Source: Candidatus Venteria ishoeyi (GTDB lineage: Bacteria > Pseudomonadota > Gammaproteobacteria > Beggiatoales > Beggiatoaceae). From it: 64,000 nt of DNA. A program made the translations under genes and the position numbers. The stretch is taken from NCBI RefSeq assembly GCF_030378065.1, contig NZ_JAUCGJ010000012.1:35874-99873 (forward strand), read 5' to 3'. Under the pieces are notes generated by a model. That model was not told the origin of the DNA. It made no database searches and saw nothing but the letters and a program-made list of their open reading frames with translations. This document shows positions 15,099 to 27,426 of this stretch, piece by piece (positions within the stretch are counted from its first letter, which is position 1; each line of letters starts with the position of its first letter).

Positions 15099-15118
15099 GG
15101 GGGGACTATCGTCCCCCC
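15099..15118 (-). promoter_or_regulatory. GATA-loop hairpin downstream of VR3 (DGR target element)
   Basis: On the minus strand an 8-bp stem GGGGGGAC/GTCCCCCC closes the loop GATA. The loop fits the GRNA tetraloop of the hairpin that enhances target recognition in the Bordetella phage DGR. Equivalent hairpins occur after VR1 (22484-22501) and VR2 (25467-25484) but not after the TR. The position is about 80 bp past the VR end. Confidence 0.7.
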
Positions 15119-15130
15119 TCTCCCCCCCTT

Positions 15131-15153
15131 AAATTTTTGCAGGGCAAAAATTT
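15131..15153 (-). promoter_or_regulatory. 10-bp stem hairpin downstream of VR3
   Basis: Arms AAATTTTTGC and GCAAAAATTT around a 3-nt loop, 44 bp past the VR3 end. VR1 and VR2 have AAATATTCGC/GCGAATATTT at the same place. The stem bases changed together, so pairing has been kept while sequence moved. It could be a target-recognition cruciform or a terminator. Confidence 0.65.
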
Positions 15154-15187
15154 AATAATAAAGGGTTAAAGGGCAAAGCCCAAAGTG

Positions 15188-16864
15188 CTAATAAATCCTG
15201 GCGACACGAAAACCAACATCGAGGCTGCGTTCCGAAGGCCCCCCGCCGCTGCGGTAAGCAGAACGCACCCAGTCCGGTTTGCTGTTCCAGGAGCCGCCGC
15301 GCAACACGCGCCTTTCATTATCTTTTTTATTCAACAAACAGGTTTGTTCCTGTCCCTGATATTTCTTTTCATAAACGGAACAAGTCCATTCCCAGACATT
15401 GCCCACAGTATCAAACAAACCAAAAGCATTAGCGCTGAAACTGCCCACCGGGGCGGTTTGTTTGCCATCCCAAGTGCTGCCGCAACCGTTACAGTTGGCT
15501 TTGTTTTTGCCGATGGCATTACCCCACCAGTATTTGCTTTCGCTGCCCGCCCGCGCCGCATATTCCCATTGCGTTTCCGTCGGCAGGCGGTAGCTGTTGC
15601 CGGTTTCCCGGCTCAGCCATTGCGTATAAGCCACTGCGTCCAGCCAGGTCACGCAAACCACAGGATGTTTTGTGCTTTGCTGAAAATTCGCTTGCATGAA
15701 ATCCTGACAGCCCCATTCATACTTAGGTTTAATGCCTTGATAATTCGTTGCCGTAACAAAAGCCTGGAATTCCTCCAGGGTGATTTCATAGCGGCTCATG
15801 GCAAAAGCCGCAACTGATACCGGATGCACGGGTTGTTCGTCATCGCTCCCGCCGCCCTGAATATCCCCCATGCGGAAATGACCGGCAGGAATTGAAACCA
15901 TTTGCGGGCCTTGCTGAGCATTGCGCAACTTGTCCTGAAAAATTTCACCCGCAACCGGTTCTGCCTGGATTTTTTCCCTTACCTGCCCACAGCTTCCCAG
16001 ACACACCTGCCCGAACAACATCCCCTCCACCACCGGATGCTGCTGATAGACCGCAGGCAACCCCTGATTCTGCTGTTCCATTTGCTGCACTGCGTTGCCT
16101 ATGGCCTGCATCAAATGCGTATTCGCGCCGCCGCGCAGGGCTGGCAACAAATGCCGGGTAAAATCACTGTTGCGCCGTTTATCATCGCTCCAGGCGCGGT
16201 AACTGTGCAAAGTCGCGTGTACCACCATCATGCCATTGATAGGGTTCATCGGGCGGAATTCGCCGCCGCCGCTGAAACCTTTGCTTTTTTTAAGGATAAA
16301 CTTGTCGCGGCAGGCATCTAATATCATCAGGCGGGTACGGGTGGAAGCGGCTTCAAGCCTATCCTTGATATTGTGGGCATTAACGCCATGCCCTTTGAAT
16401 TTTGCCGGGTCTTCCTTGGGAAAATTCACCCCCACCGGCAACAGATAATTGGCGCTTTCCTGGGGGCGGTTTAAGTCCTGTACATACACGCCATGCCCGG
16501 AATAATAAAAAATCACTTCACTGTCGGGATGTTGATGCAAACGCGCAAGCAGTTGATCCACGGCATTATCCATTTGCATTTTTGTGGCATTAATCAGAGG
16601 GCGGTTTTTGCCCTGCTGATTGACCAGCGTAAAACCAAAGCCTTTAAGCAGCTTTGCCACATCCCGTGCATCATTCGCCGGATTAGGCAGAGGCGGCGCG
16701 TCATTGATAAAATCCCGGCGCTGCGGGTAATCGCCATTGCCAATGACCAGCGCATAACGGTTTTGCGCGTGGACGGAGGCCATCAACAGCATAAAACCCA
16801 AAAAAATATACATTTTTAGCATTAATAAAACCCTCATCGTATAAATATTTTTCGACATTTTCAT
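15188..16864 (-). CDS. DGR target protein A: exported caspase-FGE fusion with VR3
   Basis: About 558 residues. A signal peptide (about 1-34, ending VHAQ) is followed by a caspase-fold (C14) domain at about 36-300 with the dyad His124 (YYSGHG) and Cys185 (LDACRD), then a formylglycine-generating-enzyme-type domain (about 340-558) with PAGHFRMGD, SRYEITLEEF, YRLPTETQWEYAARAG and NVWEW. The FGE domain has the C-type-lectin-like fold used by many DGR targets. Its last 38 codons before IY-stop are VR3, a copy of the TR. The ATG at 16864 is preceded by GGGGGAG, which decides the start. It is divergent from the gene at 16920 with 55 bp between them. It is probably an exported protease with a diversifying ligand-binding tip; the ligand is unknown. 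Confidence 0.92.
   Translation of the reverse strand: MKMSKNIYTMRVLLMLKMYIFLGFMLLMASVHAQNRYALVIGNGDYPQRRDFINDAPPLPNPANDARDVAKLLKGFGFTLVNQQGKNRPLINATKMQMDNAVDQLLARLHQHPDSEVIFYYSGHGVYVQDLNRPQESANYLLPVGVNFPKEDPAKFKGHGVNAHNIKDRLEAASTRTRLMILDACRDKFILKKSKGFSGGGEFRPMNPINGMMVVHATLHSYRAWSDDKRRNSDFTRHLLPALRGGANTHLMQAIGNAVQQMEQQNQGLPAVYQQHPVVEGMLFGQVCLGSCGQVREKIQAEPVAGEIFQDKLRNAQQGPQMVSIPAGHFRMGDIQGGGSDDEQPVHPVSVAAFAMSRYEITLEEFQAFVTATNYQGIKPKYEWGCQDFMQANFQQSTKHPVVCVTWLDAVAYTQWLSRETGNSYRLPTETQWEYAARAGSESKYWWGNAIGKNKANCNGCGSTWDGKQTAPVGSFSANAFGLFDTVGNVWEWTCSVYEKKYQGQEQTCLLNKKDNERRVLRGGSWNSKPDWVRSAYRSGGGPSERSLDVGFRVARIY
15197..15310 (-). repeat. DGR variable repeat VR3
   Basis: A 114-bp copy of the template repeat at the 3' end of target gene A. 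By hand alignment without gaps it differs from the TR at 16 positions, all of them adenines in the TR. The A-free 24 bp at the 5' edge and the GTTGGTTTTCGTGTCGCC block at the 3' edge are unchanged. It lies on the opposite strand to the TR. Confidence 0.95.
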
Positions 16865-16919
16865 TTTTCTCCCCCGCCAGTGATACATTAAGCCCAAACT
16901 AAAATCTAAGGAAGACATC

Positions 16920-17921
16920 ATGATGGATGAAACCGATCACAGTGTGGACAAAACCCTCAAAAAACACTTGCATCAGCTTTGCGTGGACAGCTACGGCGAG
17001 GATTTGCTGGATTTATTATGCACCATTGCCAGCGACAGCAGCCGGGAAAGTATGGCGGCACTGGTGGAACAATGGATAGACAAGCTTATTTTACCTGCCC
17101 TGCAACAGGCTGCGCAAAAAAAACAACAGCACTTAGCGCATGGATTATGGGGGGATGCACAACAAAAAGCCACTTTTAGCCTGATGTTCAGCCGCCGTCT
17201 GGATGCCAACACCTGCGCAAAACTGCAAGCTTACTGGTGCATGGAGCAACAGGAAATTCAGCAACTGGAACCTGCGCAAAAAATTCTGCACAATCTGTTG
17301 AATCAATATCTTTCTGATTTAAATCCTTTTTCCAACAAGGAAAAAATCTGGCGACAAATTGATAAAGCAATCAAACACCTGGAAAATGAAAAAAAACACC
17401 AGGATTTATTTTTTTATAAGGATTCCGCACGTCTGGCAAGTGATTTACTCGCACTCTACCAAAGGCCGCAACCGCCTAAAGGCATCACCATTCCCGAGCC
17501 TTTCCGCACGCAGCAAAGCCCTCGTGAACTGAAAGAAAAAATGCTGGCCTATTTATATGAATTTCGTGTTTACAACCAGGGGCAGACTGCTGTGGATACG
17601 CAATTAATCGGTCGGCATGTGCCGGTCATGCAACTGGACTGGGAAAATATGCAGCCCTGCTTTGAACGCCTGCCAGCAAAAGAGCGCAAAGCGGCTGAAG
17701 CCAAAGTTCAGGAATACCGCGATACGCAAAGCAAAAAATGGAGCCAGCGCCAACTGGCAAAAGTGGCAGGCATGAACCGCGAAACCTGGAAAAAACATTA
17801 CGATCTGGCGCAGCCTAAGTTACTGGACTGCCTGAAACAATTAATGCTTGAAATTGGCGATGAAAACATTGAAACCAGCGGTGATGGCTATGTCGTGACC
17901 CCGGAACAGGACAAGGAGTAA
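16920..17921 (+). CDS. Uncharacterised protein with a C-terminal HTH-like segment
   Basis: A 333-residue soluble protein; I do not recognise the family. It is Gln/Lys-rich and mostly helical. Near residues 277-297 the segment WSQRQLAKVAGMNRETWKKH looks like a helix-turn-helix of the sigma-region-4 or resolvase type. There is no signal peptide or membrane segment. An AAGGAAG ribosome-binding site precedes two tandem ATGs (16920, 16923). It heads a run of four same-strand genes (16920-20549) set between two DGR-target genes, and only about 55 bp separates it from target gene A. A regulator of the divergent caspase gene is plausible but unproven. Confidence 0.6.
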   Translation: MMDETDHSVDKTLKKHLHQLCVDSYGEDLLDLLCTIASDSSRESMAALVEQWIDKLILPALQQAAQKKQQHLAHGLWGDAQQKATFSLMFSRRLDANTCAKLQAYWCMEQQEIQQLEPAQKILHNLLNQYLSDLNPFSNKEKIWRQIDKAIKHLENEKKHQDLFFYKDSARLASDLLALYQRPQPPKGITIPEPFRTQQSPRELKEKMLAYLYEFRVYNQGQTAVDTQLIGRHVPVMQLDWENMQPCFERLPAKERKAAEAKVQEYRDTQSKKWSQRQLAKVAGMNRETWKKHYDLAQPKLLDCLKQLMLEIGDENIETSGDGYVVTPEQDKE

Positions 17922-17925
17922 AACC

Positions 17926-18468
17926 ATGAACCAGCAACAACACGGCGCACAAGATTTTTTTTACGAACTGCTGGCAAACCAGACAGTCGAAAATGACTGC
18001 CAACAAATTAGTGATACGCGGATGTACGCGATATTAACAAAAAATAGGCAGTTCACTCCGCAGGAACAACAAGCCCTGCTGGACTCCCCTTGCACCCAGG
18101 CGCGTTTTACCCTGCTGGCGGATGTGGTGAAAATGGAGCAACATGAACAACAAGCCGCATGGCCGCCCATTGAAGCACTCGCCGCCGCTGAGAAAAGCAT
18201 ACATAAACTGGAATTTGAAGTAAGCGATTATTATCACCTGACTTTATTCCCTATAGATGCCAAAGGTACAGACTGGGAAATCCTGCTGACAATTGCTCCA
18301 AAGCAACGCGCAATGTTTCAGGCGGGTATACAACTGCTTGACGAGCAGGGGCTGGTCTGGTTACAGGGGCAATTAGACGCACAAGGACAAATCAGTGGTT
18401 TCTGGGAGCAGGAGGTTAATTTGTGGGATTATATACACGACCATACCCTGCGTATCCAGGCTCTGTAG
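17926..18468 (+). CDS. Uncharacterised 180-residue protein in the caspase cassette
   Basis: It starts 4 bp after the previous stop with an AAGGAG ribosome-binding site inside the upstream gene's end, so the two are translated together. It has 180 residues, no signal peptide and no membrane segment. The N-terminal half is helical and Gln-rich; the C-terminal half (about 95-180) is predicted to be beta-rich (LTLFPIDAKGTDWEILLTIA, GLVWLQGQLDAQGQISGFW). The pairing of a helix-turn-helix-like protein with a small soluble partner recalls a sigma factor and antagonist, but no family motif confirms this. Its TAG stop falls inside a GAGACGTWGC palindrome. Confidence 0.6.
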   Translation: MNQQQHGAQDFFYELLANQTVENDCQQISDTRMYAILTKNRQFTPQEQQALLDSPCTQARFTLLADVVKMEQHEQQAAWPPIEALAAAEKSIHKLEFEVSDYYHLTLFPIDAKGTDWEILLTIAPKQRAMFQAGIQLLDEQGLVWLQGQLDAQGQISGFWEQEVNLWDYIHDHTLRIQAL

Positions 18469-18490
18469 AGACGTAGCACGGCTACGTCTC
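18468..18490. repeat. Palindromic repeat of the GAGACGTWGC family
   Basis: Arms GAGACGTAGC and GCTACGTCTC around a 3-nt loop. The last base of the TAG stop of the gene at 17926 is the first base of the palindrome. It lies in a 56-bp gap inside a gene run, so it may be an attenuator or an RNA-processing site. Confidence 0.75.
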
Positions 18491-18524
18491 ACCCCAAACG
18501 AAGCCACCAAAAAGGAGTATTCAA

Positions 18525-19757
18525 ATGGCAAGCCTTATTGATTATGACGTGTATTTCCCCCTTAAAGGTCATGTCTCGCGTTTAATGCCGGTGACAGTCA
18601 CCAATTATAGAGAAAATGCCAAAGAGTATGATCGGGCGCGTTGCGCGAATAAAAGCAAAAATCAGGAAGTCAACCAGATACTGGAATGCAGCCGTGAACG
18701 GGAAAGCCCGACAAGCGCCGCCTTATCGGTTTATGTCACGTTTGATAAGAATAAACGCGCCACATTCAACAGCAGCAGCTACACGCTGGCACTGGCGTTG
18801 GCGGATAAATGCGCCCGTTTTACCCCCTTTCCCGGCAAACTGGTGGCAACAGGTCGCCTGCTGGCGGAAAACAGGATAGGTAAAATCGGACATTTTCAGG
18901 AAAAACTGCAAACCATTGCCCAGGCACTGGCGGCAAAGGAACTGCACCAAGGCGATGTGCTGATTTATCCGGCGGAAAATGAACAACAGGCCAGCGGGGA
19001 AGAACGGCAGTTATTAAAACAACTCCGGCAACAAGGTCTGCAACTGCGCGCGGCAAACAATCTTGAAGCATTAAGCGATCTCTGGAGCCAGCGCCGACAG
19101 CCGGAAAAGCGCAGCACGCAGCACTTTGCCCTGCTGAGTGTTGTATTGCTGCTGGCAACTGCCAGCGTCTTCTTCTGGCCGGCAAGTGCCGTGAAAAATA
19201 CCCCGCCGGTTGTCATGCCGGTTATCACAAAGGCAAGCGACTGCACCAGCCTGCCGCTGGATGTGGCAAGGCTGCAACGCTGCATTGAACCGGACTTGCT
19301 CAATCCGGCGGATTTTCAAGTGGATTACAGCTACCGCCAGGTTAAGGAGAATTATGCCCAGGTCTACCCCTTGTTAGATAAAGCCGTTTTACACGTCCAT
19401 GATCGTTTCAAGATTCACCTCACCTCACCACAGGACGCTTATGTTTATCTCTATCTATACGACAGCCACGGAGAACTGCATGACTTAATGACACTCTCAA
19501 AAAAATCTCACGCCATCAGTCGTGATCAATCCATCACCCTGCCCTCGGCAAAAACTAACTTCACCCTGGATGATCAAACCGGTACGGAAACCTTATATTT
19601 TCTCGCCAGCCGGGTGCCGGAAACGGCCTTGCAGGCACAATATCAGGCACTGAAAACCGCCCGTGACCAGGGACGGCACGAACAAGTTAAACAACTGCAA
19701 CAACCGCTGCTGGCGTACCTGCAAAAGCACCAGCAACGTTATTTTTTACACCAGTAG
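18525..19757 (+). CDS. Membrane protein: Lon-protease-like domain, one TM, DUF4384
   Basis: A 410-residue protein. The segment around residues 80-150 aligns without gaps to the Lon (S16) proteolytic core: Ser84 in NSSSYTLALALA falls at the Lon catalytic Ser, and Lys127 in GHFQEKL falls at the Lon catalytic Lys, with the same 43-residue spacing and a shared VATG motif between them. The usual S-A-G is S-S-Y here. There is no AAA+ domain. A membrane segment at about 201-220 is followed by an exported region and a DUF4384 domain (about 295-375: AYVYLYLYDSHGELHDLM, FTLDDQTGTETLYFLAS). So it is probably a transmembrane protein with a cytoplasmic protease-like domain and a periplasmic sensor domain. 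An AAGGAG ribosome-binding site supports the start. Confidence 0.75.
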   Translation: MASLIDYDVYFPLKGHVSRLMPVTVTNYRENAKEYDRARCANKSKNQEVNQILECSRERESPTSAALSVYVTFDKNKRATFNSSSYTLALALADKCARFTPFPGKLVATGRLLAENRIGKIGHFQEKLQTIAQALAAKELHQGDVLIYPAENEQQASGEERQLLKQLRQQGLQLRAANNLEALSDLWSQRRQPEKRSTQHFALLSVVLLLATASVFFWPASAVKNTPPVVMPVITKASDCTSLPLDVARLQRCIEPDLLNPADFQVDYSYRQVKENYAQVYPLLDKAVLHVHDRFKIHLTSPQDAYVYLYLYDSHGELHDLMTLSKKSHAISRDQSITLPSAKTNFTLDDQTGTETLYFLASRVPETALQAQYQALKTARDQGRHEQVKQLQQPLLAYLQKHQQRYFLHQ

Positions 19758-19844
19758 AACCTGTTCGATATAAGCTTCTTTCAACATTTAACAGGCTGAA
19801 AACCGCTGATATCTCACATTAAATTAATCTCAAGGAGAACAAAC

Positions 19845-20549
19845 ATGTTCAAACCAATAGTGTTTATCACCCTGCTGCTGAGCGCCAGTTTTTCAGCGCA
19901 AGCCAGTTCCCGCATTGGAAAAGGCGTTATCGTCTGCCCGGATGATCCACAGATTTGCATTGGCGTTAATCCCGTAGCACTGCTGGATACACAAACGGTA
20001 TCTGGTATAAGCAAAGCTCAACAGCCAGTCACGGATATGGATATCCGCTATCACTACAGCGATGCCAGCGGCAATGGCAAGGCCGACAAGCTCGACAATG
20101 GTAAAACCCTGCATTCCGGGGACAAGTTCACCATTGAAATCAGCGCGCATGAAGACCTGTATGTGTACCTGTATCATTTTGACAGCCACAAACAACTCAA
20201 TGAACTGGTAACACTGTCAGGCCAAAGCAATCACCTGAAAGCCGGAGACAAACGCACGCTGCCTGCAAAAAACAAACATTTCCGGCTGGATGACAAAACC
20301 GGCACTGAAACCCTGCACACCATTGTGTCCAAAAAACCACTGAGTAATCTGGAAAGTCTGTACCACAAAAAAGTTCTGGGGGAAGCTCAAATCCAGCGGG
20401 TCAGCAAAGGCGTGACGGTGGGAACGGACAGTGTGAAAAAATTGGAGCCAATCGCGGAGTCAATCGTGGAAAAGGCAGATGCTGGACGGGTGATTAGCTG
20501 CCTGAAAGCCGACCATTGCCGGGAAAGTTTTATCATTTATCACCGTTAA
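19845..20549 (+). CDS. Secreted DUF4384 protein
   Basis: A 234-residue exported protein with a signal peptide (about 1-20, ending SAQA). The central DUF4384 domain (about 75-165: DKFTIEISAHEDLYVYLYHF, FRLDDKTGTETLHTIVSKKP) is clearly paralogous to the C-terminal domain of the preceding gene. Two Cys pairs lie outside the domain (CPDDPQIC and CLKADHC). DUF4384 domains are found joined to, or next to, caspase-like proteases; here it could bind the periplasmic parts of its neighbours. An AAGGAG ribosome-binding site precedes the ATG. A nested palindrome follows at 20607-20687. Confidence 0.8.
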   Translation: MFKPIVFITLLLSASFSAQASSRIGKGVIVCPDDPQICIGVNPVALLDTQTVSGISKAQQPVTDMDIRYHYSDASGNGKADKLDNGKTLHSGDKFTIEISAHEDLYVYLYHFDSHKQLNELVTLSGQSNHLKAGDKRTLPAKNKHFRLDDKTGTETLHTIVSKKPLSNLESLYHKKVLGEAQIQRVSKGVTVGTDSVKKLEPIAESIVEKADAGRVISCLKADHCRESFIIYHR

Positions 20550-20606
20550 AGATTATCCCCTGCGCGGTTGTTCATTGAGCGCCGATTGAAATAGCGGGGC
20601 ATCGCC

Positions 20607-20687
20607 GTAGAGACGTATCGTTTTTCATAGCAAGACTTTCACGGATAACACCCCTTCAAAGGGGTGTTATCCGTCATACGTCTCTAC
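20607..20687. repeat. Nested palindrome, GAGACGTWGC-family outer arms
   Basis: Outer arms GTAGAGACGTAT and ATACGTCTCTAC enclose about 57 bp. Inside is a second, 13-bp perfect stem CGGATAACACCCC / GGGGTGTTATCCG with a 6-nt loop (20642-20673). It sits between the DUF4384 gene and target gene B and looks like one palindromic element inserted within, or grown from, another. Confidence 0.7.
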
Positions 20688-20760
20688 AGGGTGATACAGG
20701 TGGCGCATCACAAACACATCAGCGATAATCAGGTTTCGCGTAAAAATCGGAGAAATCAAC

Positions 20761-22413
20761 ATGAAACGCCGTCAGGCATTATCCATAGTCTGCTTATTGC
20801 TGTTCACCTTATCCGCCCAGGCCAGCAATAAAATTGCCCTGCTCATTGGCAACGGGGCTTACCCGCGCGCCAACAATCAAAACCTGTTCGGCCCCTTGCC
20901 CAATCCCAAAAACGACATTGCAGACATGCAAAACGTATTACAAGGCTTTGGCTATCAGGTGTACGCGCTGCCCGATGCCAATAAAAAAATCATGGAAAAG
21001 GCGGTCAAATGTCTGGCGGGACAAATTAGCAGCCAGCGCCAGTGTCCGCAAAAATACCGTATCCAGAGTGGTGACACGGTGATTTTTTATTACTCCGGTC
21101 ACGGTGCGCAAGCCAAAGTCCAGGGCGCGGTTAAAAATTATCTGGTGCCGGTGGGCAGACGCTACGCCGATGCCGCCGACCTGGTGGAATACGGCATCAG
21201 TGCGCGCTGGATACTGAGCAAACTGGAAAACAGCAGGGCGAAGGTTAAAGTCATGATACTGGATGCCTGCCGCGACCGCATACAACTCTCCACCGGCAAA
21301 GGTTTCGGCGACAGTGGTTTCACCCGTATGCACCCACAGGGCGCGTTTGTCGCCTACGCCACGCAGTCCGGGCATATCGCCTGGGGCGATGACAAGCGCC
21401 GTAACAGTTTATATACCGAAAAACTGCTGGAAAACCTGAAAACCGGTGGCGGCAAGACCATTCATGAAGTGTTTCGCAAAACCCGCGACGCGGTGTTTCT
21501 TGCCACCCGTGATGACCAGGGCAAACAACGCCAGATTCCCTGGGAGGAAGAGCAACTCATCGGCGATTTTTGTTTTGCCGGGTGCGGGCGGTTTAGCGCA
21601 CAAACCGGCAGTCAGGATACGCCGCCAACACAAATTCAGACCGGACAAACCCTGCAACGGGAAGCCAAGGGTTTTCGTGAACCACTGAAATCCGGCGGCT
21701 ACGGCCCTCTGATGGTGCGCATCCCCGGCGCAGATTATGCGATGGGCACTTATGAAATCAGCGTAGGCGAATACCGCCGTTTCGAGCAAAGCAGTGGTTA
21801 TCGCTCCAAAGGCGATGATTGTTATGTCGATAAAGATCAGGACGGTTCCTGGGGAAAGGTCAAAGATGCTTCCTGGCAAAAGCCTTATTTTAAGCAGAGC
21901 GCACAGCATCCGGTGGTCTGCGTCAGTTGGTCTGATGCCGTGGCCTACAGCAAATGGCTGAGCCGGGAAACCGGCAACCACTATCGCCTGCCCACCAGCG
22001 AGGAATGGGAACGGGCGGCGCGGGCGGAAACCACCACAGAGCGTTATTGGGGGGATGATGCGGACTTGGCCTGTGCTTATGCCAATGTGGGTGATCAAAC
22101 GGCTAAACAAAAGTATTCAGACTGGATGATTCATAATTGCCGGGATGGTTATGTGTATACTGCCCCGGTCGGTCAATTCAAACCCAATGCCTGGGGGTTA
22201 TATGATGTATTGGGTAATGCCTGGGAATGGACTTGTTCGCTTTATGATGGGGAACAATCTGCTTGTGCGCCGGAAAAGGGTAATGAAAGCCGCGTGTTGC
22301 GCGGCGGCTCCTGGAACTACAGACCGTACGGGGTGCGTTCTGCTTCCCGCTTCTCCGGGAGGCCCTCGCCTCGCAACTACGATGTTGGTTTTCGTGTCGC
22401 CAGGATTTATTAG
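20761..22413 (+). CDS. DGR target protein B: exported caspase-FGE fusion with VR1
   Basis: A 550-residue protein with a signal peptide (about 1-22, ending SAQAS). It has a caspase-fold domain (about 23-275) with the dyad His114 (YYSGHG) and Cys170 (LDACRD), then an FGE/C-type-lectin-fold domain (about 310-550) with MGTYEISVGEYRRFE, YRLPTSEEWERAARAE and NAWEWTCS. The 3' end is VR1. This target is nearest to avd and the reverse transcriptase and on the same strand, so it is the likely ancestral cognate target. A GGAGAAATCAAC spacing before the ATG gives a good ribosome-binding site. It is likely a periplasmic or exported cysteine protease-like protein with a hypervariable binding face; proteolytic specificity (caspases of this type often prefer Arg/Lys) is unknown. 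Confidence 0.93.
   Translation: MKRRQALSIVCLLLFTLSAQASNKIALLIGNGAYPRANNQNLFGPLPNPKNDIADMQNVLQGFGYQVYALPDANKKIMEKAVKCLAGQISSQRQCPQKYRIQSGDTVIFYYSGHGAQAKVQGAVKNYLVPVGRRYADAADLVEYGISARWILSKLENSRAKVKVMILDACRDRIQLSTGKGFGDSGFTRMHPQGAFVAYATQSGHIAWGDDKRRNSLYTEKLLENLKTGGGKTIHEVFRKTRDAVFLATRDDQGKQRQIPWEEEQLIGDFCFAGCGRFSAQTGSQDTPPTQIQTGQTLQREAKGFREPLKSGGYGPLMVRIPGADYAMGTYEISVGEYRRFEQSSGYRSKGDDCYVDKDQDGSWGKVKDASWQKPYFKQSAQHPVVCVSWSDAVAYSKWLSRETGNHYRLPTSEEWERAARAETTTERYWGDDADLACAYANVGDQTAKQKYSDWMIHNCRDGYVYTAPVGQFKPNAWGLYDVLGNAWEWTCSLYDGEQSACAPEKGNESRVLRGGSWNYRPYGVRSASRFSGRPSPRNYDVGFRVARIY
22291..22404 (+). repeat. DGR variable repeat VR1
   Basis: 114 bp aligned without gaps to the TR at a constant offset of 1783 bp. 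It has 18 differences, each at a TR adenine (for example AAC to TAC, AAC to TCC, AAA to CCT); the 84 non-adenine positions are identical. It encodes the stretch from RVLRGGSW to GFRVAR at the C-terminus of target B. Confidence 0.97.
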
Positions 22414-22447
22414 CACTTTGGGCTTTGCCCTTTAACCCTTTATTGAT

Positions 22448-22470
22448 AAATATTCGCTGTGCGAATATTT
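22448..22470 (+). promoter_or_regulatory. 10-bp stem hairpin downstream of VR1
   Basis: Arms AAATATTCGC and GCGAATATTT around the loop TGT, 44 bp past the VR1 end. It is conserved in place after VR2 and, with compensatory base changes, after VR3. There is no equivalent after the TR. Confidence 0.7.
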
Positions 22471-22483
22471 ACAGGGGGATTCA

Positions 22484-22501
22484 GGGGGACGGTAGTCCCC
22501 C
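22484..22501 (+). promoter_or_regulatory. GGTA-loop hairpin downstream of VR1 (DGR target element)
   Basis: A 7-bp stem GGGGGAC/GTCCCCC closing the loop GGTA. The loop fits the GRNA consensus of the target-recognition hairpin in the Bordetella phage DGR. The same element is present after VR2 and VR3 with loop GATA. Confidence 0.7.
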
Positions 22502-22529
22502 GATCGCGGCATTTTTTGCCCCCCCTGTA

Positions 22530-22552
22530 GAGACGTTGCACTGCAACGTCTC
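22530..22552. repeat. Palindromic repeat of the GAGACGTWGC family
   Basis: Arms GAGACGTTGCA and TGCAACGTCTC around one C. This copy has the TTGC/GCAA version of the stem, where others have TAGC/GCTA; the paired change keeps the stem intact. Confidence 0.8.
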
Positions 22553-22607
22553 AAACGCAGCCGTAAACCTAAATGCTCACAATTAACGTATTCATGGTAG
22601 CGGAGTT

Positions 22608-22630
22608 GAGACGTAGCAGTGCTACGTCTC
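22608..22630. repeat. Palindromic repeat of the GAGACGTWGC family, just before avd
   Basis: Arms GAGACGTAGCA and TGCTACGTCTC around one G, 23 bp before the avd start codon. As the RNA leader of avd it could attenuate or protect the DGR transcript. Confidence 0.75.
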
Positions 22631-22653
22631 TACGAGCCGCAAGGTAAAAAATC

Positions 22654-23004
22654 ATGCAGAAAAAACAGAAAAATCAATACGCGCAAGCCGTGCAAAATTG
22701 CCATGAATTACTGATCTGGCTGATTCATCATCTGGATAAATTTCCCCGTGCCAGACGTTATACTCTGGGCGCGCATTTGGAAAATCGCCTACTGGAAATC
22801 CTCGAATGCCTAGTGGATGCCGCTTACAGTCGACAAAAAACCGCGCCACTGAAACAGGCCAACAAACATCTGGAAATCTGTCGTCATCTATGGCGTATAG
22901 CATTGGAATTGCGGCTGATTTCCATGAAAAGCTATGAGCATGGTATTTTGCAGATGGATAATATCGGTCGCCAGATTGGCGGCTGGATCAGGTCATGCCA
23001 ATGA
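22654..23004 (+). CDS. avd: DGR accessory variability determinant (Avd)
   Basis: A 116-residue, all-helical basic protein of the Avd / 23S-intervening-sequence four-helix-bundle family. Characteristic segments are LIHHLDKFPRARRYTLGAHL and ENRLLEILECLVDAAYS. In DGRs Avd forms a pentameric ring that binds the reverse transcriptase and the template RNA and is required for mutagenic cDNA synthesis. Its 3' end overlaps the reverse-transcriptase gene by 10 bp, so the two proteins are made together. The ribosome-binding site is weak (AAGG at 22640-22643). Length and gene order (avd, RT, TR) match known DGRs. Confidence 0.93.
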   Translation: MQKKQKNQYAQAVQNCHELLIWLIHHLDKFPRARRYTLGAHLENRLLEILECLVDAAYSRQKTAPLKQANKHLEICRHLWRIALELRLISMKSYEHGILQMDNIGRQIGGWIRSCQ

Positions 23005-24068
23005 AACGTTACGGTCATTTATGGCCTGAAATTGTCAGCCTGGATAATTTATACCTGGCCTATCGCAAAGCCCGTAAAGGCAAGCAAAATCGTGACAGCG
23101 TGGCGGACTTTTCCCTGCGCTTAGAAGCGCAATTATTGGCTTTGCAAAATGAATTAAGCAATGGCACTTATATACCCGGAGAATACCGCTTATTCACCAT
23201 TTATGAAGGCAAACCGCGTTTGATTGCCGCCGCGCCATTTCGGGATCGGGTGGTGCATCATGCCTTGATGAATCTAATTGAGCCTTTGCTTGATCCCCAT
23301 TTCATTGATCAGTCCTACGCTTGCCGCAAAGGAAAAGGCGTGCATAAAGCCGTTGATTATTACCAGCAGCAGGCAAAACAATATGCTTATGCCTTAAAAA
23401 TGGATGTACAGGCTTATTTTCCCAGTATTGATCATCAAATTTTGCAGACAAAAATTTCTCGTTATGTGAAAGATAAAAAAGTGTTGGATTTATTCGGGTG
23501 TATCATTGCCGGTTCACCCACTTATCCGCATCCACCTTGTTATTTTCCGGGGGATGATTTGTTTACCCCGCTTGAGCGACGGCACGGTATTCCGATTGGA
23601 AACTTAACCAGCCAGTTTCTGGCAAATCTGTATTTGAATGATCTGGATCATCATTTTCGTTCAACCCTTAAAGTTCCGGCTTATCTGCGCTACGTTGATG
23701 ATATTATCGTGCTGGCTGACAGTAAAAAATATTTATCTGAAATTCGCAAAATTACAGAAGATTATTTATTGAGTTTGCGTTTAAATCTGCATCCACGCAA
23801 AGCCCATATTGTACCCGTTAGTAAAGGCGTGGATGTGTTCGGTTATTTTGTGTATCCGCATTGCCGCCGTCTGCGCAATGAAAACGGCTATCGCTTTGTC
23901 CGTAAATTACGAAGGTTCTCCAAGGCTTATGCGCGTAATGATCTGGATTGGATAGATTTTAACGCCAGTGTACAAAGTTGGATTGGTCATGCCAGCCATG
24001 CTGATACAAAAGCCTTGCGTGAAACGCTATTTTCTGCAATGATTTTTCAGCGGGAATCCGGCAACTGA
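22995..24068 (+). CDS. DGR reverse transcriptase
   Basis: A 357-residue reverse transcriptase. The polymerase motifs are all present: RLIAAAPFRDRVVHHAL, DQSYACRKGKGVH, LKMDVQAYFPSIDH (first catalytic Asp), IGNLTSQF at residues 201-208, and YVDD at 233-236. The IGNLTSQ version of motif 4 is the DGR hallmark and is thought to contribute to adenine infidelity; group II intron and retron enzymes differ there. It has no maturase or endonuclease domain. It overlaps avd by 10 bp, and the TR begins 5 bp after its stop codon, so template RNA, Avd and RT probably come from one transcript. Confidence 0.97.
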   Translation: MPMKRYGHLWPEIVSLDNLYLAYRKARKGKQNRDSVADFSLRLEAQLLALQNELSNGTYIPGEYRLFTIYEGKPRLIAAAPFRDRVVHHALMNLIEPLLDPHFIDQSYACRKGKGVHKAVDYYQQQAKQYAYALKMDVQAYFPSIDHQILQTKISRYVKDKKVLDLFGCIIAGSPTYPHPPCYFPGDDLFTPLERRHGIPIGNLTSQFLANLYLNDLDHHFRSTLKVPAYLRYVDDIIVLADSKKYLSEIRKITEDYLLSLRLNLHPRKAHIVPVSKGVDVFGYFVYPHCRRLRNENGYRFVRKLRRFSKAYARNDLDWIDFNASVQSWIGHASHADTKALRETLFSAMIFQRESGN

Positions 24069-24073
24069 GAATC

Positions 24074-24187
24074 CGCGTGTTGCGCGGCGGCTCCTGGAAC
24101 AACAAACCGAACAGGGTGCGTTCTGCTAACCGCAACAACAGGAGGCCAACGAAACGCAACAACAATGTTGGTTTTCGTGTCGCCAGG
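24074..24187 (+). repeat. DGR template repeat (TR)
   Basis: 114 bp starting 5 bp after the RT stop. It has 30 adenines, all in the middle and 3' part. The first 24 bp and 20 of the last 21 bp have no adenine and so stay constant in the VRs. Eight AAC codons and one AAT give wide amino-acid range without making stop codons; the two AAA codons could. It matches VR1, VR2 and VR3 except at adenines. Beyond 24187 (CTACCC) the similarity to the targets stops abruptly, marking the TR-side version of the mutagenesis initiation site. Confidence 0.97.
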
Positions 24188-24374
24188 CTACCCAGCCCAT
24201 ACACCCGGAATATCTACGTTCAAGGATGCAGATAGCGTGGTGATTGGGTATCCATGACCGGATTTCCCTGCCTCGCAAGGATGGGATCGCAAAATAAATT
24301 GTCAGGGATGATAGCCCTGTTGCTGGTAGCGTAATGCGAAGGTGACGGGGCTTTTTACATTTAGGGAACTTATC

Positions 24375-25229
24375 ATGCCAAGAAAACTTATCAGCTTTGA
24401 TTGGGCGATTAAAAAAATCCTCAGAAGCAAGGCCAACTTCGGCATACTCGAAGGCTTTTTAAGCGAATTGCTGTTTACTGAAATCCGCATCCTTGAGGTT
24501 TTGGAAAGCGAAAGTAATCAGGATAAAGGTTTTGATAAATATAACCGGGTTGATATTAAAGTCATTGATGCCGATCAGCAGATTATTATCATTGAAATAC
24601 AGTATTTGCGGGAACTGGACTATTTGCAAAGAATCCTGTTCGCCAGCGCCAAAACCATCAGCGAACACTTGACGGAAGGCACTGCCTACGCGGAAGTCAG
24701 TAAAGTGATTTCAGTGAATATTTTGTATTTTGACTTCGGCAAGGGCGATGATTATATCTATCATGGCACCACCAACTTTATCGGAATGCACAATCACAGC
24801 GTTTTGGAACTCAACGAAGACCAGAAAAAGCTGTATAAAGCGGAGAAAATTGCGGATATTTATCCGGAATATTACTTGATTGAAGTTAAAAACTTTAATG
24901 ATATTGCCAAAGACAGCCTGGATGAATGGATTTATTTTTTTAAAAATGAGCAAATCAAGGAAGATTTTACCGCAAGAGGACTCAGGCAGGCAAAAGAAAC
25001 GCTGGATGTACTGAAAATGAATGAGCAGGAACGCTACGCTTATGAATACCATCAGGAACAACTGCATTATGAAGCCAGTATGTATGAATCCAGCTATATT
25101 GCGGCAAAACTGGAAGGCAAAGCAGAAGGCATTTTAATCACCGCTAAAAATATGAAACAAGCTGGCATTCCCGTTGCAACCATTGCCCAGGTGACGGGTT
25201 TATCAATAGCGCAAATAGAAGTGCTGTAA
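24375..25229 (+). CDS. Rpn-family PD-(D/E)XK nuclease / transposase-like protein
   Basis: A 284-residue member of the Rpn/YhgA-type (PF12784-like) family of recombination-promoting nucleases. The nuclease core is visible: FDKYNRVDIKVIDADQQIII with Asp60, then E74-I-Q76, the PD-(D/E)XK variant E-x-Q. The C-terminal region (about 210-284) is helical, with KLEGKAEGILITAKNMKQAG and a repeat-like tail common in the family. The ATG at 24375 has a GGGAACTT spacer region upstream. It lies between the TR and target C, 187 bp past the TR. Such genes are often mobile; a role in the DGR is not known. Base composition is more AT-rich than that of its neighbours. Confidence 0.85.
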   Translation: MPRKLISFDWAIKKILRSKANFGILEGFLSELLFTEIRILEVLESESNQDKGFDKYNRVDIKVIDADQQIIIIEIQYLRELDYLQRILFASAKTISEHLTEGTAYAEVSKVISVNILYFDFGKGDDYIYHGTTNFIGMHNHSVLELNEDQKKLYKAEKIADIYPEYYLIEVKNFNDIAKDSLDEWIYFFKNEQIKEDFTARGLRQAKETLDVLKMNEQERYAYEYHQEQLHYEASMYESSYIAAKLEGKAEGILITAKNMKQAGIPVATIAQVTGLSIAQIEVL

Positions 25230-25266
25230 CATAAGCGGGTGCCGGTGCTGTATGCTATTGGATAAC

Positions 25267-25295
25267 GTAAAGACGTAGCACTGCTACGTCTTTAC
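25267..25295. repeat. Palindromic repeat of the GAGACGTWGC family
   Basis: Arms GTAAAGACGTAGCA and TGCTACGTCTTTAC around one C, a perfect 14-bp stem. It lies 38 bp after the Rpn gene stop and may end its transcript. The outer pairs differ from other copies on both arms (TAAAG/CTTTA), so pairing is kept. Confidence 0.78.
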
Positions 25296-25416
25296 CGCTA
25301 CGCCTCGGAATTTCAAGCTGCGCTCACATTAACAAGCGTGAATAGCAAGCTGCTTTGTTTGATAGTATTAGCTGCGTTCAGGATTGCGCTGGTTGTGGGT
25401 TGAGACGTTGCGGGTT

Positions 25417-25439
25417 GAGACGTTGCAGTGCAACGTCTC
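25417..25439. repeat. Palindromic repeat of the GAGACGTWGC family
   Basis: Arms GAGACGTTGCA and TGCAACGTCTC, preceded by a half copy at about 25401-25411. It follows the VR2 downstream hairpins in the same relative position as the copy at 22530 follows those of VR1, so the whole VR-plus-tail block appears to have been duplicated. Confidence 0.78.
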
Positions 25440-25466
25440 TACGGGGGGGCAAAAAATGCCGCGATC

Positions 25467-25484
25467 GGGGGACTATCGTCCCCC
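25467..25484 (-). promoter_or_regulatory. GATA-loop hairpin downstream of VR2 (DGR target element)
   Basis: Stem GGGGGAC/GTCCCCC with loop GATA on the minus strand, about 80 bp past the VR2 end. It matches the GRNA-type loop and its counterparts after VR1 and VR3. Confidence 0.7.
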
Positions 25485-25497
25485 TGAATCCCCCTAT

Positions 25498-25520
25498 AAA
25501 TATTCGCGCGGCGAATATTT
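25498..25520 (-). promoter_or_regulatory. 10-bp stem hairpin downstream of VR2
   Basis: Arms AAATATTCGC and GCGAATATTT around a 3-nt loop, 44 bp past the VR2 end, at the same spacing as after VR1 and VR3. Confidence 0.7.
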
Positions 25521-25554
25521 ATCAATAAAGGGTTAAAGGGTAAAGCCCAAAGCG

Positions 25555-27426
25555 CTAATAAATCCTGGCGACACGAAAACCAACACTGACGTAGCGAGAC
25601 GAAGGCCTCCCGGTGTAGCGGTAAGCAGAACGCACCCTGTCCGGCCCGTTGTCCCAGGAGCCGCCGCGCAACACGCGGTTTTTATTATCTTTTTTATCCG
25701 GCAAACAGGTTTTTTCCTGACCTTTATACTTATTTTCATAAGCCGAACAGCTCCATTCCCAGGCATTACCCACAGTATCAAATAAACCAAAAGCATTAGC
25801 ACTGAAACTACCCACAGGCGCTGTTTGTTTAGCATCCCAACGGCTGCCGCAACCACGACAATTGGCTTTATTGTTGCCAATGGCATTGCCCCACCAGTAT
25901 TTGCTCTCGCTGCCCACCCGCGCCGCGTATTCCCATTGCGCTTCCGTTGGCAGGTGGTAGCCGTTGCCGGTTTCCCGGCTCAGCCACTCAGTATAAGCCA
26001 CAGCATCCAGCCAGGTGATACAGACAACAGGATGATTGGCAGTTTGGCTGAAATGGGGCTGCATAAATGCCTTGCAGCCCCATTCATTGCTAGGTTTTAC
26101 GCCTTGATAGCCCGTTGCCTGCACAAAAGACTGAAACTCCCCCAGGGTGATTTCATGGCGACTCATGGCAAACGCCGCAACAGATACCTGATGCACAGGT
26201 TGCTCATCACTACCCCCACCACCCTGAATATCCCCCATGCGAAAACTACCGGCGGGAATCGAGGCCATTTGCGGGCCTTTTGTGCCATTGCGCAACGTAT
26301 CCTGAAAAAAGCTGCTGGCACTACCGGTGCTGGTTGGCAAAACTGGCGGTGTTGTTGGCGCATTTTGCGCAAACTGGCGCGCCACTGGCGTGGTGGTCAC
26401 TACCTGCGCCCTTTTTTCCATCGCTTCTGCCGTCTGCCGCGCTGCCAGCAACTGTTGTTGCAAACGGCTGTTTTCCTCGCGTAAGCCTTGTGCTTGCGCT
26501 TGTTCTTGCAGCCGCGCCTGTTTTGCGCCCAGTTGCTGTTTCAAACGGTTGTTTTCCTGGCGTATACGCTGTGTCTGTGACCAGTCAAGACATTGCCCCA
26601 GGCAGAAATCACCGCTCAGGGTGCCGGTTTCCACGCGCGGCATTTGCGCGCTGCCGTGGGCTTTGGCATCGGTAACCACCGCCGCGCCCGCGTATTTGAG
26701 CAGTTGTTCAAAAGGCAGCGCGGCATAGTCGGACATGGCTTGCAGCACCTTGCCGGTGTAGACGCTGGTGCTTAAATTGTGATCCACGTAAGCCGCCGTG
26801 CCCAGCGTGCTGGCAAAACCGATAATGGAGCCTTCCGGCTGCATATCCCGCATCCCCCGTTCGCCAACACCTTTGCTGTTGCCGACATATTCCCGGCAGG
26901 CATCGAGCAGCATAATACGCACCCCGGCGTTGGAGGCTTCCAAATCACGTTTAATGGCGTGGGCGCTGACGGCGGCAGATTTAATACTGCCTTCGGTGTG
27001 AATTGTTCGCCCTACCGGAATCAGGTAATTTTCACTGTTGCCGCGATAATGTACGCCGTGACCGGAATAATAAAATAATACTGTGCCGCCACGGGGAATA
27101 TTTTTGATAAAATTAGCAATCTGCCTGTCCATTTGGCCTAAGTTGGCATCTTTGAGCACGGTGCTTTGGAAACCATAAGCCGCCAGTGCTTTTTGCATGT
27201 GTTCAACATCATTGCGCGGGTTATGACCGAGGCTGCGGAACATGCCTTGATTGCCATAGTTGCTGTTGCCTATCAGCAGCGCCAGACGCGGGCCGCTATG
27301 CCGGGCGGCATTGCCTGTGGCGTTGGCGGCAGGTGATTGAGTACTGCCTTTGCCGGTTTGCTTGGCGCTGCCGCTACAGGCTGAAAGCAGCACGGTACAC
27401 AGCAATAAAGCCATCAGAGTTTTCAT
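25555..27426 (-). CDS. DGR target protein C: caspase-FGE lipoprotein with VR2
   Basis: 623 residues. A lipoprotein signal has lipobox LSAC (Cys17) and a Ser/Gly/Ala-rich linker. A caspase-fold domain (about 45-285) has the dyad His123 (YYSGHG) and Cys177 (LDACRE). A Gln/Arg-rich coiled coil (about 290-345) and a Thr/Pro-rich spacer lead to an FGE/C-type-lectin-fold domain (about 380-623) with MASIPAGSFRMGD, MSRHEITLGEF and YHLPTEAQWEYAARVG. The FGE domain is closely similar to that of target A. VR2 forms the last 38 codons before IY-stop. Lipid anchoring differs from the soluble export signals of targets A and B, so the three targets may act at different places in the envelope. Confidence 0.93.
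   Translation of the reverse strand: MKTLMALLLCTVLLSACSGSAKQTGKGSTQSPAANATGNAARHSGPRLALLIGNSNYGNQGMFRSLGHNPRNDVEHMQKALAAYGFQSTVLKDANLGQMDRQIANFIKNIPRGGTVLFYYSGHGVHYRGNSENYLIPVGRTIHTEGSIKSAAVSAHAIKRDLEASNAGVRIMLLDACREYVGNSKGVGERGMRDMQPEGSIIGFASTLGTAAYVDHNLSTSVYTGKVLQAMSDYAALPFEQLLKYAGAAVVTDAKAHGSAQMPRVETGTLSGDFCLGQCLDWSQTQRIRQENNRLKQQLGAKQARLQEQAQAQGLREENSRLQQQLLAARQTAEAMEKRAQVVTTTPVARQFAQNAPTTPPVLPTSTGSASSFFQDTLRNGTKGPQMASIPAGSFRMGDIQGGGGSDEQPVHQVSVAAFAMSRHEITLGEFQSFVQATGYQGVKPSNEWGCKAFMQPHFSQTANHPVVCITWLDAVAYTEWLSRETGNGYHLPTEAQWEYAARVGSESKYWWGNAIGNNKANCRGCGSRWDAKQTAPVGSFSANAFGLFDTVGNAWEWSCSAYENKYKGQEKTCLPDKKDNKNRVLRGGSWDNGPDRVRSAYRYTGRPSSRYVSVGFRVARIY
25564..25677 (-). repeat. DGR variable repeat VR2
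   Basis: 114 bp aligned without gaps to the TR. It has 18 differences, all at TR adenines (for example AAA to GGG, AAC to GTC, AAA to TCT). It is on the opposite strand to the TR, about 1.4 kb away. The variable residues differ from those of VR1 at most positions, so the two have diversified independently. Confidence 0.97.

Follow-up and report, generated by a model that had tools for sequence, protein, structure and literature searches.

A predicted diversity-generating retroelement in Candidatus Venteria ishoeyi with one template repeat and three adenine-variable repeats at the ends of caspase-FGE genes

We analyzed a 64,000-nucleotide stretch of the Candidatus Venteria ishoeyi genome (hereafter the window; part of contig C10 of an assembly of 4.41 Mb in 115 contigs, 98.8% complete) that carries a predicted diversity-generating retroelement (DGR). 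Its core consists of avd (the gene for the accessory variability protein), a reverse transcriptase (RT) gene and a 114-bp template repeat (TR). Three target genes, each encoding a caspase domain followed by an FGE-sulfatase domain, end in variable repeats (VRs) that match the TR without gaps, VR1 on the plus strand and VR2 and VR3 on the minus strand. All of these parts lie within 12.2 kb (15188-27426; Table 1). Papers cited here by PMC number were available to us in part, and what is said of them is limited to those parts; labels beginning with L, G and C are our own for loci, genomes and contigs.

The Avd protein scored 91.5 bits against the NCBIfam model NF033474 (DivGenRetAVD, cut-off 80) and also matched Pfam bAvd (PF22296). 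The RT frame is open, as are avd and all three target genes, adjoins the TR and contains the catalytic YxDD motif in the form YVDD (23691-23702); it also carries IGNLTSQ (23595-23615), which we take to be a DGR-type RT motif. No DGR-specific RT model in NCBIfam matched it, and its top match among PDB sequences was 8ub7 (E = 1.7e-49). An earlier reading of the bare sequence (the original prediction) had named avd, an RT with both motifs and the 114-bp TR, and all three were found where it had placed them.

The TR and the three VRs differ in 52 places, and all 52 are adenines in the TR; with 30 adenines among 114 positions, random placement would produce this with a probability of about 10^-30. 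None of the 84 non-adenine sites differs in any VR. When the VRs are compared with one another, 16-19 of the 30 adenine sites differ and, again, none of the other 84; 27 adenines are altered in at least one VR, with only TR positions 26, 38 and 112 never altered. These counts bear out what had been predicted, namely gap-free 114-bp copies at the 3′ ends of three genes and a single TR that accounts for all of them on both strands. The coding reach of the TR is about 10^15.7 protein variants per VR, with stop codons possible only at two AAA codons. Homology to the TR ends at once beyond each VR. The search for further TR copies that the original prediction had proposed, made over the 4.41 Mb with a 141-base query around the TR, returned the TR and the three VRs (E ≤ 1.8e-30) and no further VR, the next best of the 19 listed matches reaching only E = 5e-4. 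FGE-type partial matches on contigs C2, C9 and C93 were considered as additional VRs and rejected, as they carry 23-29 non-adenine mismatches per 114 positions.

Table 1. Features of the DGR locus (positions in the window)
Feature	Position	Strand	Remarks
avd, accessory variability protein, 116 aa	22654-23004	+	NCBIfam NF033474 DivGenRetAVD, Pfam bAvd PF22296
Reverse transcriptase (RT), 357 aa, without internal stop	22995-24068	+	Pfam PF00078
Template repeat (TR), 114 bp, 30 adenines	24074-24187	+	starts six bases past end of RT stop codon
VR1	22291-22404	+	gap-free against TR; 18 mismatches, all at TR A
VR2	15197-15310	-	gap-free against TR; 16 mismatches, all at TR A
VR3	25564-25677	-	gap-free against TR; 18 mismatches, all at TR A
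Target gene 1, caspase (C14) + FGE-sulfatase, 550 aa	20761-22413	+	N-terminal signal-like segment, by eye
Target gene 2, caspase + FGE, 558 aa from inner ATG	15188-16864	-	577 aa if start at 16921
Target gene 3, caspase + FGE, 623 aa	25555-27426	-	lipobox-like LSAC near N terminus
Post-VR1 A+T-rich hairpin, 11-bp stem	22447-22471	+	
Post-VR1 G+C-rich hairpin	22484-22501	+	GGGGGAC-GGTA-GTCCCCC (GRNA loop)
Post-VR2 A+T-rich hairpin, 12-bp stem	15129-15155	-	
Post-VR2 G+C-rich hairpin	15099-15118	-	GGGGGGAC-GATA-GTCCCCCC
Post-VR3 A+T-rich hairpin, 12-bp stem	25496-25522	-	
Post-VR3 G+C-rich hairpin	25467-25484	-	GGGGGAC-GATA-GTCCCCC
Post-TR RNA element	24188-24271	+	model R1, 73.7 bits
Outer stem P1	24189-24195 with 24244-24250	+	folding program prefers 24195-24199 with 24245-24249
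Inner hairpin P2	~24211-24220 with 24225-24234	+	covariation in 7 and 12 sequences
Inverted repeat, left arm (VR1 + 3′ module), 252 bp	22274-22525	+	flanks avd-RT-TR core
Inverted repeat, right arm (VR3 + 3′ module), 90% complementary	25443-25694	-	flanks avd-RT-TR core

Common to all three targets is a non-coding module 3′ of the VR with two hairpins: an A+T-rich one with an 11-12 bp stem (+42/43 to +67/68 from the VR) and a G+C-rich one with a four-base loop (+79/80 to +97/98), reading GGTA, GATA and GATA after VR1, VR2 and VR3, respectively. The A+T-rich stem of VR2 differs from those of VR1 and VR3 at two base pairs, both of them compensated (by eye). Perfect stems of at least 7 bp with a GRNA loop occur three times in the window, counting both strands, and these are exactly the ones downstream of the three VRs, where each could form a hairpin or cruciform. 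The motif GGGGACGRNAGTCCCC likewise occurs three times genome-wide (reversed control, 0), and a genome search with the 126-bp flank gave matches of E ≤ 3.4e-24 at the three VRs only. GRNA is the loop consensus of the hairpins of phage DGRs; in phage BPP-1, the hairpin after the VR is needed for efficient homing, its stem sequence being free to vary while its loop sequence matters (PMC3240598).

The history of the target genes can be read from the DNA around the VRs. Over the 300 bases preceding the VR, 24 of 100 third codon positions are different between genes 2 and 3, vs. none of the 34 synonymous-capable third positions inside VR2 and VR3 (P ~9e-5), and the first 60 bases 3′ of the VRs show 7, 4 and 9 differences between pairs (Fisher P = 0.0018, 0.028 and 0.0003). 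Because third positions and flanks differ and the non-adenine VR sites do not, we conclude that the TR rewrote the VRs at a time when the gene copies were already divergent. The FGE bodies of genes 2 and 3 are 81% identical in DNA and those of genes 1 and 3 only 58%, whereas the 150-bp 3′ flanks are 96% identical for VR1 and VR3 and 79% for VR2 and VR3; the caspase parts are 49-53% alike in every pair. Gene body and 3′ module, then, have had histories of their own, implying that a crossover or conversion took place within or close to the VR; genes 1 and 3 have likely recombined in the 3′ flank. Since these histories differ, the module behaves like a portable target tag, and it is likely that a VR with some 150 bp of 3′ DNA constitutes a tag that any gene can acquire. 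VR1 and VR3 with their modules also form the 252-bp inverted repeats of Table 1, which, judged from their arrangement, could let the avd-RT-TR core flip. Short palindromes of the GAGACGTTGC...GCAACGTCTC type lie near the ends of the VR1 and VR3 modules (22531-22553, 25271-25296 and 25401-25441) and look like miniature inverted-repeat transposable elements (MITEs).

In all three target proteins the caspase domain precedes the FGE-sulfatase domain; the latter scores above its cut-off in every one, and the VR lies at the 3′ end of each gene. The GHG histidine and the DACR cysteine, presumably the caspase catalytic dyad, are invariant in a three-way alignment, and the PADLOC caspase model matches part of all three proteins (E = 7e-15, 1e-11 and 2e-8). 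The N termini, judged by eye, are signal-peptide-like in targets 1 and 2 and lipobox-like (LSAC) in target 3, and from these we infer export, predicting caspase proteins of the cell surface or periplasm. They are likely recognition proteins, varied in the lectin-like FGE region at the C terminus.

Directly behind the TR lies a candidate structured RNA. It combines two helices, the outer stem P1 and the inner hairpin P2, with a CNGA motif and with a CCATG that does not vary among seven sequences. In those seven, 91% of the cells of P2 are paired and 22 cells show double changes, values that were not reached in any of 500 shuffles; when the pairing is slid, only 26-50% of cells pair, vs. 91% in register. 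Twelve sequences aligned to model R1, which was built from the seven, gave 36 P2 cells with double changes, although this alignment, being made to the model, favors its structure (L056, L062, L081, L116 and L117 are outside the training set). P1 is listed and not counted: it could be parsed in 13 of 17 post-TR stretches, the four more distant ones having no motif match. Within the locus, model R1 matches behind the TR and at no VR. Over 42 genomes of the family it finds nine places in 7 genomes, six of them beside an RT and three not (G000:C9, G032:C182 and G025:C261). Besides the window, loci L024, L044-L047, L056, L080, L081, L116 and L117 carry the element. The element has no family in Rfam, where the only two hits (E = 0.8 and 4.8) fell well short of the gathering scores, and searches of open-licence papers in PMC listed no relevant description of a conserved DGR template RNA outside BPP-1. 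We take the DGR in which a spacer of this kind has been characterized to be that of BPP-1. There, a folded spacer downstream of the TR brings in RT-Avd and primes the synthesis of cDNA (PMC12875486); by analogy, the post-TR element would do the same here.

Considering all of this together, we are confident that the locus is a complete DGR with one TR and three adenine-only VRs, and that it very probably uses error-prone reverse transcription and VR replacement to diversify all three caspase-FGE genes. In the scheme we propose, an RNA with the TR and, behind it, the structured element would bring in RT and Avd, and cDNA with random bases opposite the adenines would replace VR1, VR2 or VR3. Donor and recipient would be told apart by their marks—the RNA element at the TR only, the GRNA-hairpin module at the VRs only—and as genes acquired the tag, one cassette could come to serve three genes on both strands.

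A number of observations weigh against this reading or parts of it. The GRNA hairpins lie 79-98 bases past the VR, vs. a published phage range of 4-34 (PMC3240598), and the three cannot be counted as independent events because they are homologous copies. A survey of flanks in 10 of the 16 relatives with a TR-VR pair (described below) found stems of at least 6 bp in only 7 of 11 VR flanks, with a GRNA loop in one (L032), and such stems in the TR flanks of 4 of the 10 as well. TR and VRs are identical over the A-poor 3′ end, where no difference between an initiation-of-mutagenic-homing sequence (IMH) and IMH* was seen. As for the RNA element, 16 of 500 shuffles of the seven sequences, and 25 of 500 of the 12, attained the observed number of doubly changed pairs; the window RNA alone is no more stable than shuffles (z = -0.99); and of 26 loci, model R1 matches only 9 at E ≤ 1e-3, its reach thus being limited to the close clade. 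The predicted structure of target 1 has a mean pLDDT (predicted local distance difference test) of 73, but the VR part (481-541) falls below 50, and export and ligand binding of the targets are sequence-based predictions. Finally, the RT forms a cluster of its own, with its nearest relatives 65-66% identical and no second strain among the matches listed (best 120 of 7985).

How far do other explanations account for the same facts? The three genes are FGE paralogues, and the likely recombination between the 3′ flanks of genes 1 and 3 might suggest that the VRs are nothing more than the ends of paralogues, held similar by gene conversion or by selection on the protein. Gene conversion would, however, level the adenine sites too, yet more than half of them differ between VRs, and protein selection would not freeze 34 synonymous-capable third positions; because the VR differences are site-specific, we consider this explanation refuted and give it almost no credence. 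Harder to set aside, though in our view unlikely, is an element that was recently active and is now silent, its VRs a frozen snapshot of past homing. Such decay has parallels in the family, where 6 of the 18 RT matches other than the element's own contain stops, and in this genome, where an RT-less remnant may lie on contig C9 (see below), and the lack of a close strain among the matches listed also suits it; nevertheless, avd, the RT and the three targets are open, and the non-adenine sites are still identical in all three VRs.

A further possibility, toward which we lean less than halfway, is that only some VRs are well used. In a DGR reconstituted in E. coli, the orientation of the target relative to replication shifts the rate up to 44-fold, co-directional targets being preferred (PMC12875486), and VR1 is oriented opposite to VR2 and VR3, so that the two sets could home at very different rates. 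Against this, VR1, VR2 and VR3 carry 18, 16 and 18 altered adenines and nothing else, so no VR looks older, and the GC skew of the window switches sign repeatedly and so gives no replication direction. A complete DGR that probably diversifies all three genes is the reading we carry forward.

One close comparison is BPP-1, with which the locus shares avd, the RT, adenine-specific TR-VR differences, a VR at the 3′ end of the target and a GC-rich GRNA hairpin (PMC3240598). The two differ in layout, since the TR precedes the RT in BPP-1 and follows it here, and since there are three targets here, two of them inverted, with the hairpin ~80 bases from the VR; they also differ in the target, a phage tail protein there and caspase-FGE proteins here. 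The DGRs of Thiohalocapsa PB-PSB1 and other multicellular bacteria resemble the present one in having several targets per genome, FGE/C-lectin VRs, MITE-like repeats and duplication and recombination of target ends; a perfect non-adenine match was taken in Thiohalocapsa as a sign of diversification by a given TR, and such targets are read as sensors in programmed-death or immunity systems (PMC10907252). Here, in contrast, the caspase is joined directly to the FGE domain in exported-looking proteins, and the STAND/NACHT or MoxR-vWA partners that mark the clade 5 antigen sensors are lacking: Pfam and PADLOC (E 0.001) revealed no STAND, NACHT, MoxR or vWA domain in ten proteins of the locus, and for this reason we do not claim membership in those conflict systems. 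Cyanobacterial DGRs likewise have several targets per DGR and caspase-like N termini (orthocaspase domains have been noted) fused to a CLec VR domain (PMC7517822), but their targets are remote, whereas the three described here are grouped in 12.2 kb, occupy both strands and have one hairpin module apiece. In the DiGReF survey, DGRs with three or four VRs occur, and in three the RT is on the strand opposite the TR/VR; in those strand-split cases the RT stands opposite TR, VR and target, while here RT, TR and VR1 are together and VR2 and VR3 are opposite (PMC3521204). Treponema denticola variable protein 1 (TvpA; 2y3c) matches the FGE region of target 2 (E = 5.6e-12), over residues 423-555 only and without a caspase match.

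To see how unusual the arrangement is, one may turn to the relatives. One locus with a close relative of the RT, L024, was found in genome_contigs, and none in IMG/VR. We examined the RT loci of 25 relatives in stretches of 3-20 kb, too short to capture distant targets. Sixteen of these loci had a credible TR-VR pair: 14 have one VR, two (L051 and L081) have two, all on the TR strand, and none has three; in L047 the single VR is opposite to its TR. The other nine had no credible pair. The pair of L057, with 18 of its 24 mismatches at A, is borderline, L080 is cut by a contig end (63 bases), and weak or overlapping repeat matches in L045, L047, L051, L053, L058, L060 and L081 were set aside by eye. 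In L047 (G026:C20, 7753-10082), an RT match with two stops lies on one strand and the TR with its RNA element on the other; this is probably a rearranged, dead DGR.

The original prediction had called both the three targets and the inversion of two of them unusual. As to number, three is the most in our own sample, but several VRs are reported for 271 of 948 DGRs in one survey (PMC6642488), and DiGReF counts three VRs in two DGRs (all within one open reading frame in one of these) and four VRs in three (PMC3521204); the available part of PMC8144416 has no passage on multi-target DGRs. As to inversion, VR2 and VR3 are indeed inverted relative to the template, but an inverted BPP-1 target homes at a near-normal level (PMC3240598), and strand-split DGRs have been described (PMC3521204). 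Multi-target and strand-split DGRs are already known, and the window adds another example.

Model R1 also led to two cases in which a target gene is joined to a template element, one of which lies in this genome. On contig C9 (L062, G000:C9:48000-67000), two tandem FGE genes lie on the minus strand (L062 9551-10357 and 10520-11347). Three consecutive 100-column blocks of their bodies show 99-100% identity, but the two genes differ at 23 of 114 VR-equivalent positions, 22 of these at codon positions 1 or 2. The 3′ flank of gene b carries a GC hairpin (+93 to +110, loop CTGG), and the post-TR element lies directly 3′ of gene a, the upstream one (41.2 bits, E = 2e-8). We rejected the idea that gene b is a fresh adenine-mutated copy of gene a, as 12 of the 23 differences are at non-adenine sites of a. 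A genome-wide RT search (PF00078) gave matches on C10, C27, C45 and C86 only and none on C9; the RT of L002 we take, by eye and from its motif, to be group II-type. In L116 (G032:C182, 1991-2615), a caspase gene with most of its FGE part missing runs straight into the post-TR element (by eye). The simplest reading of the C9 and C182 arrangements is recombination between a directly repeated VR and TR that removed avd and the RT, and the C9 locus may be either an RT-less DGR remnant or a template acting in trans. A third RT-less element (57.1 bits) lies in L117 (G025:C261, 3911-3977), with no RT match in its genome at E 1e-40 and no TR-VR pair on the 4.3-kb contig.

These fusions allow a more speculative extension, which we think rather unlikely: the VR with its ~150-bp hairpin module would be a mobile “mutate me” tag that moves by recombination apart from the gene body and enrolls its carrier at a rate set by the strand, and, conversely, the target gene on C9 would have captured a template element, so that its transcript could serve as a template in trans for the RT of the window. 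Quite apart from this, a single machine would vary three predicted cell-surface or periplasmic proteins, and one and the same cDNA would encounter three recipients of differing orientation, distance and hairpin sequence—a natural internal control. The locus is well suited to probing how replication direction bears on homing and what the GRNA hairpin contributes outside phages, and the post-TR element is a possible searchable signature for DGR templates of this clade that lack an RT.

The neighbors of the targets encode two DUF4384 proteins, two proteins without a family and one Rpn-type nuclease. Three of these genes lie upstream of the VR1 gene (16920-19757): two have no family, and the product of the third (18525-19757) carries DUF4384 at its C terminus. 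Their products may be partners of the caspase-FGE proteins. The gene for the Rpn-family nuclease or putative transposase (TIGR01784; 24342-25229) lies between the TR and VR3.

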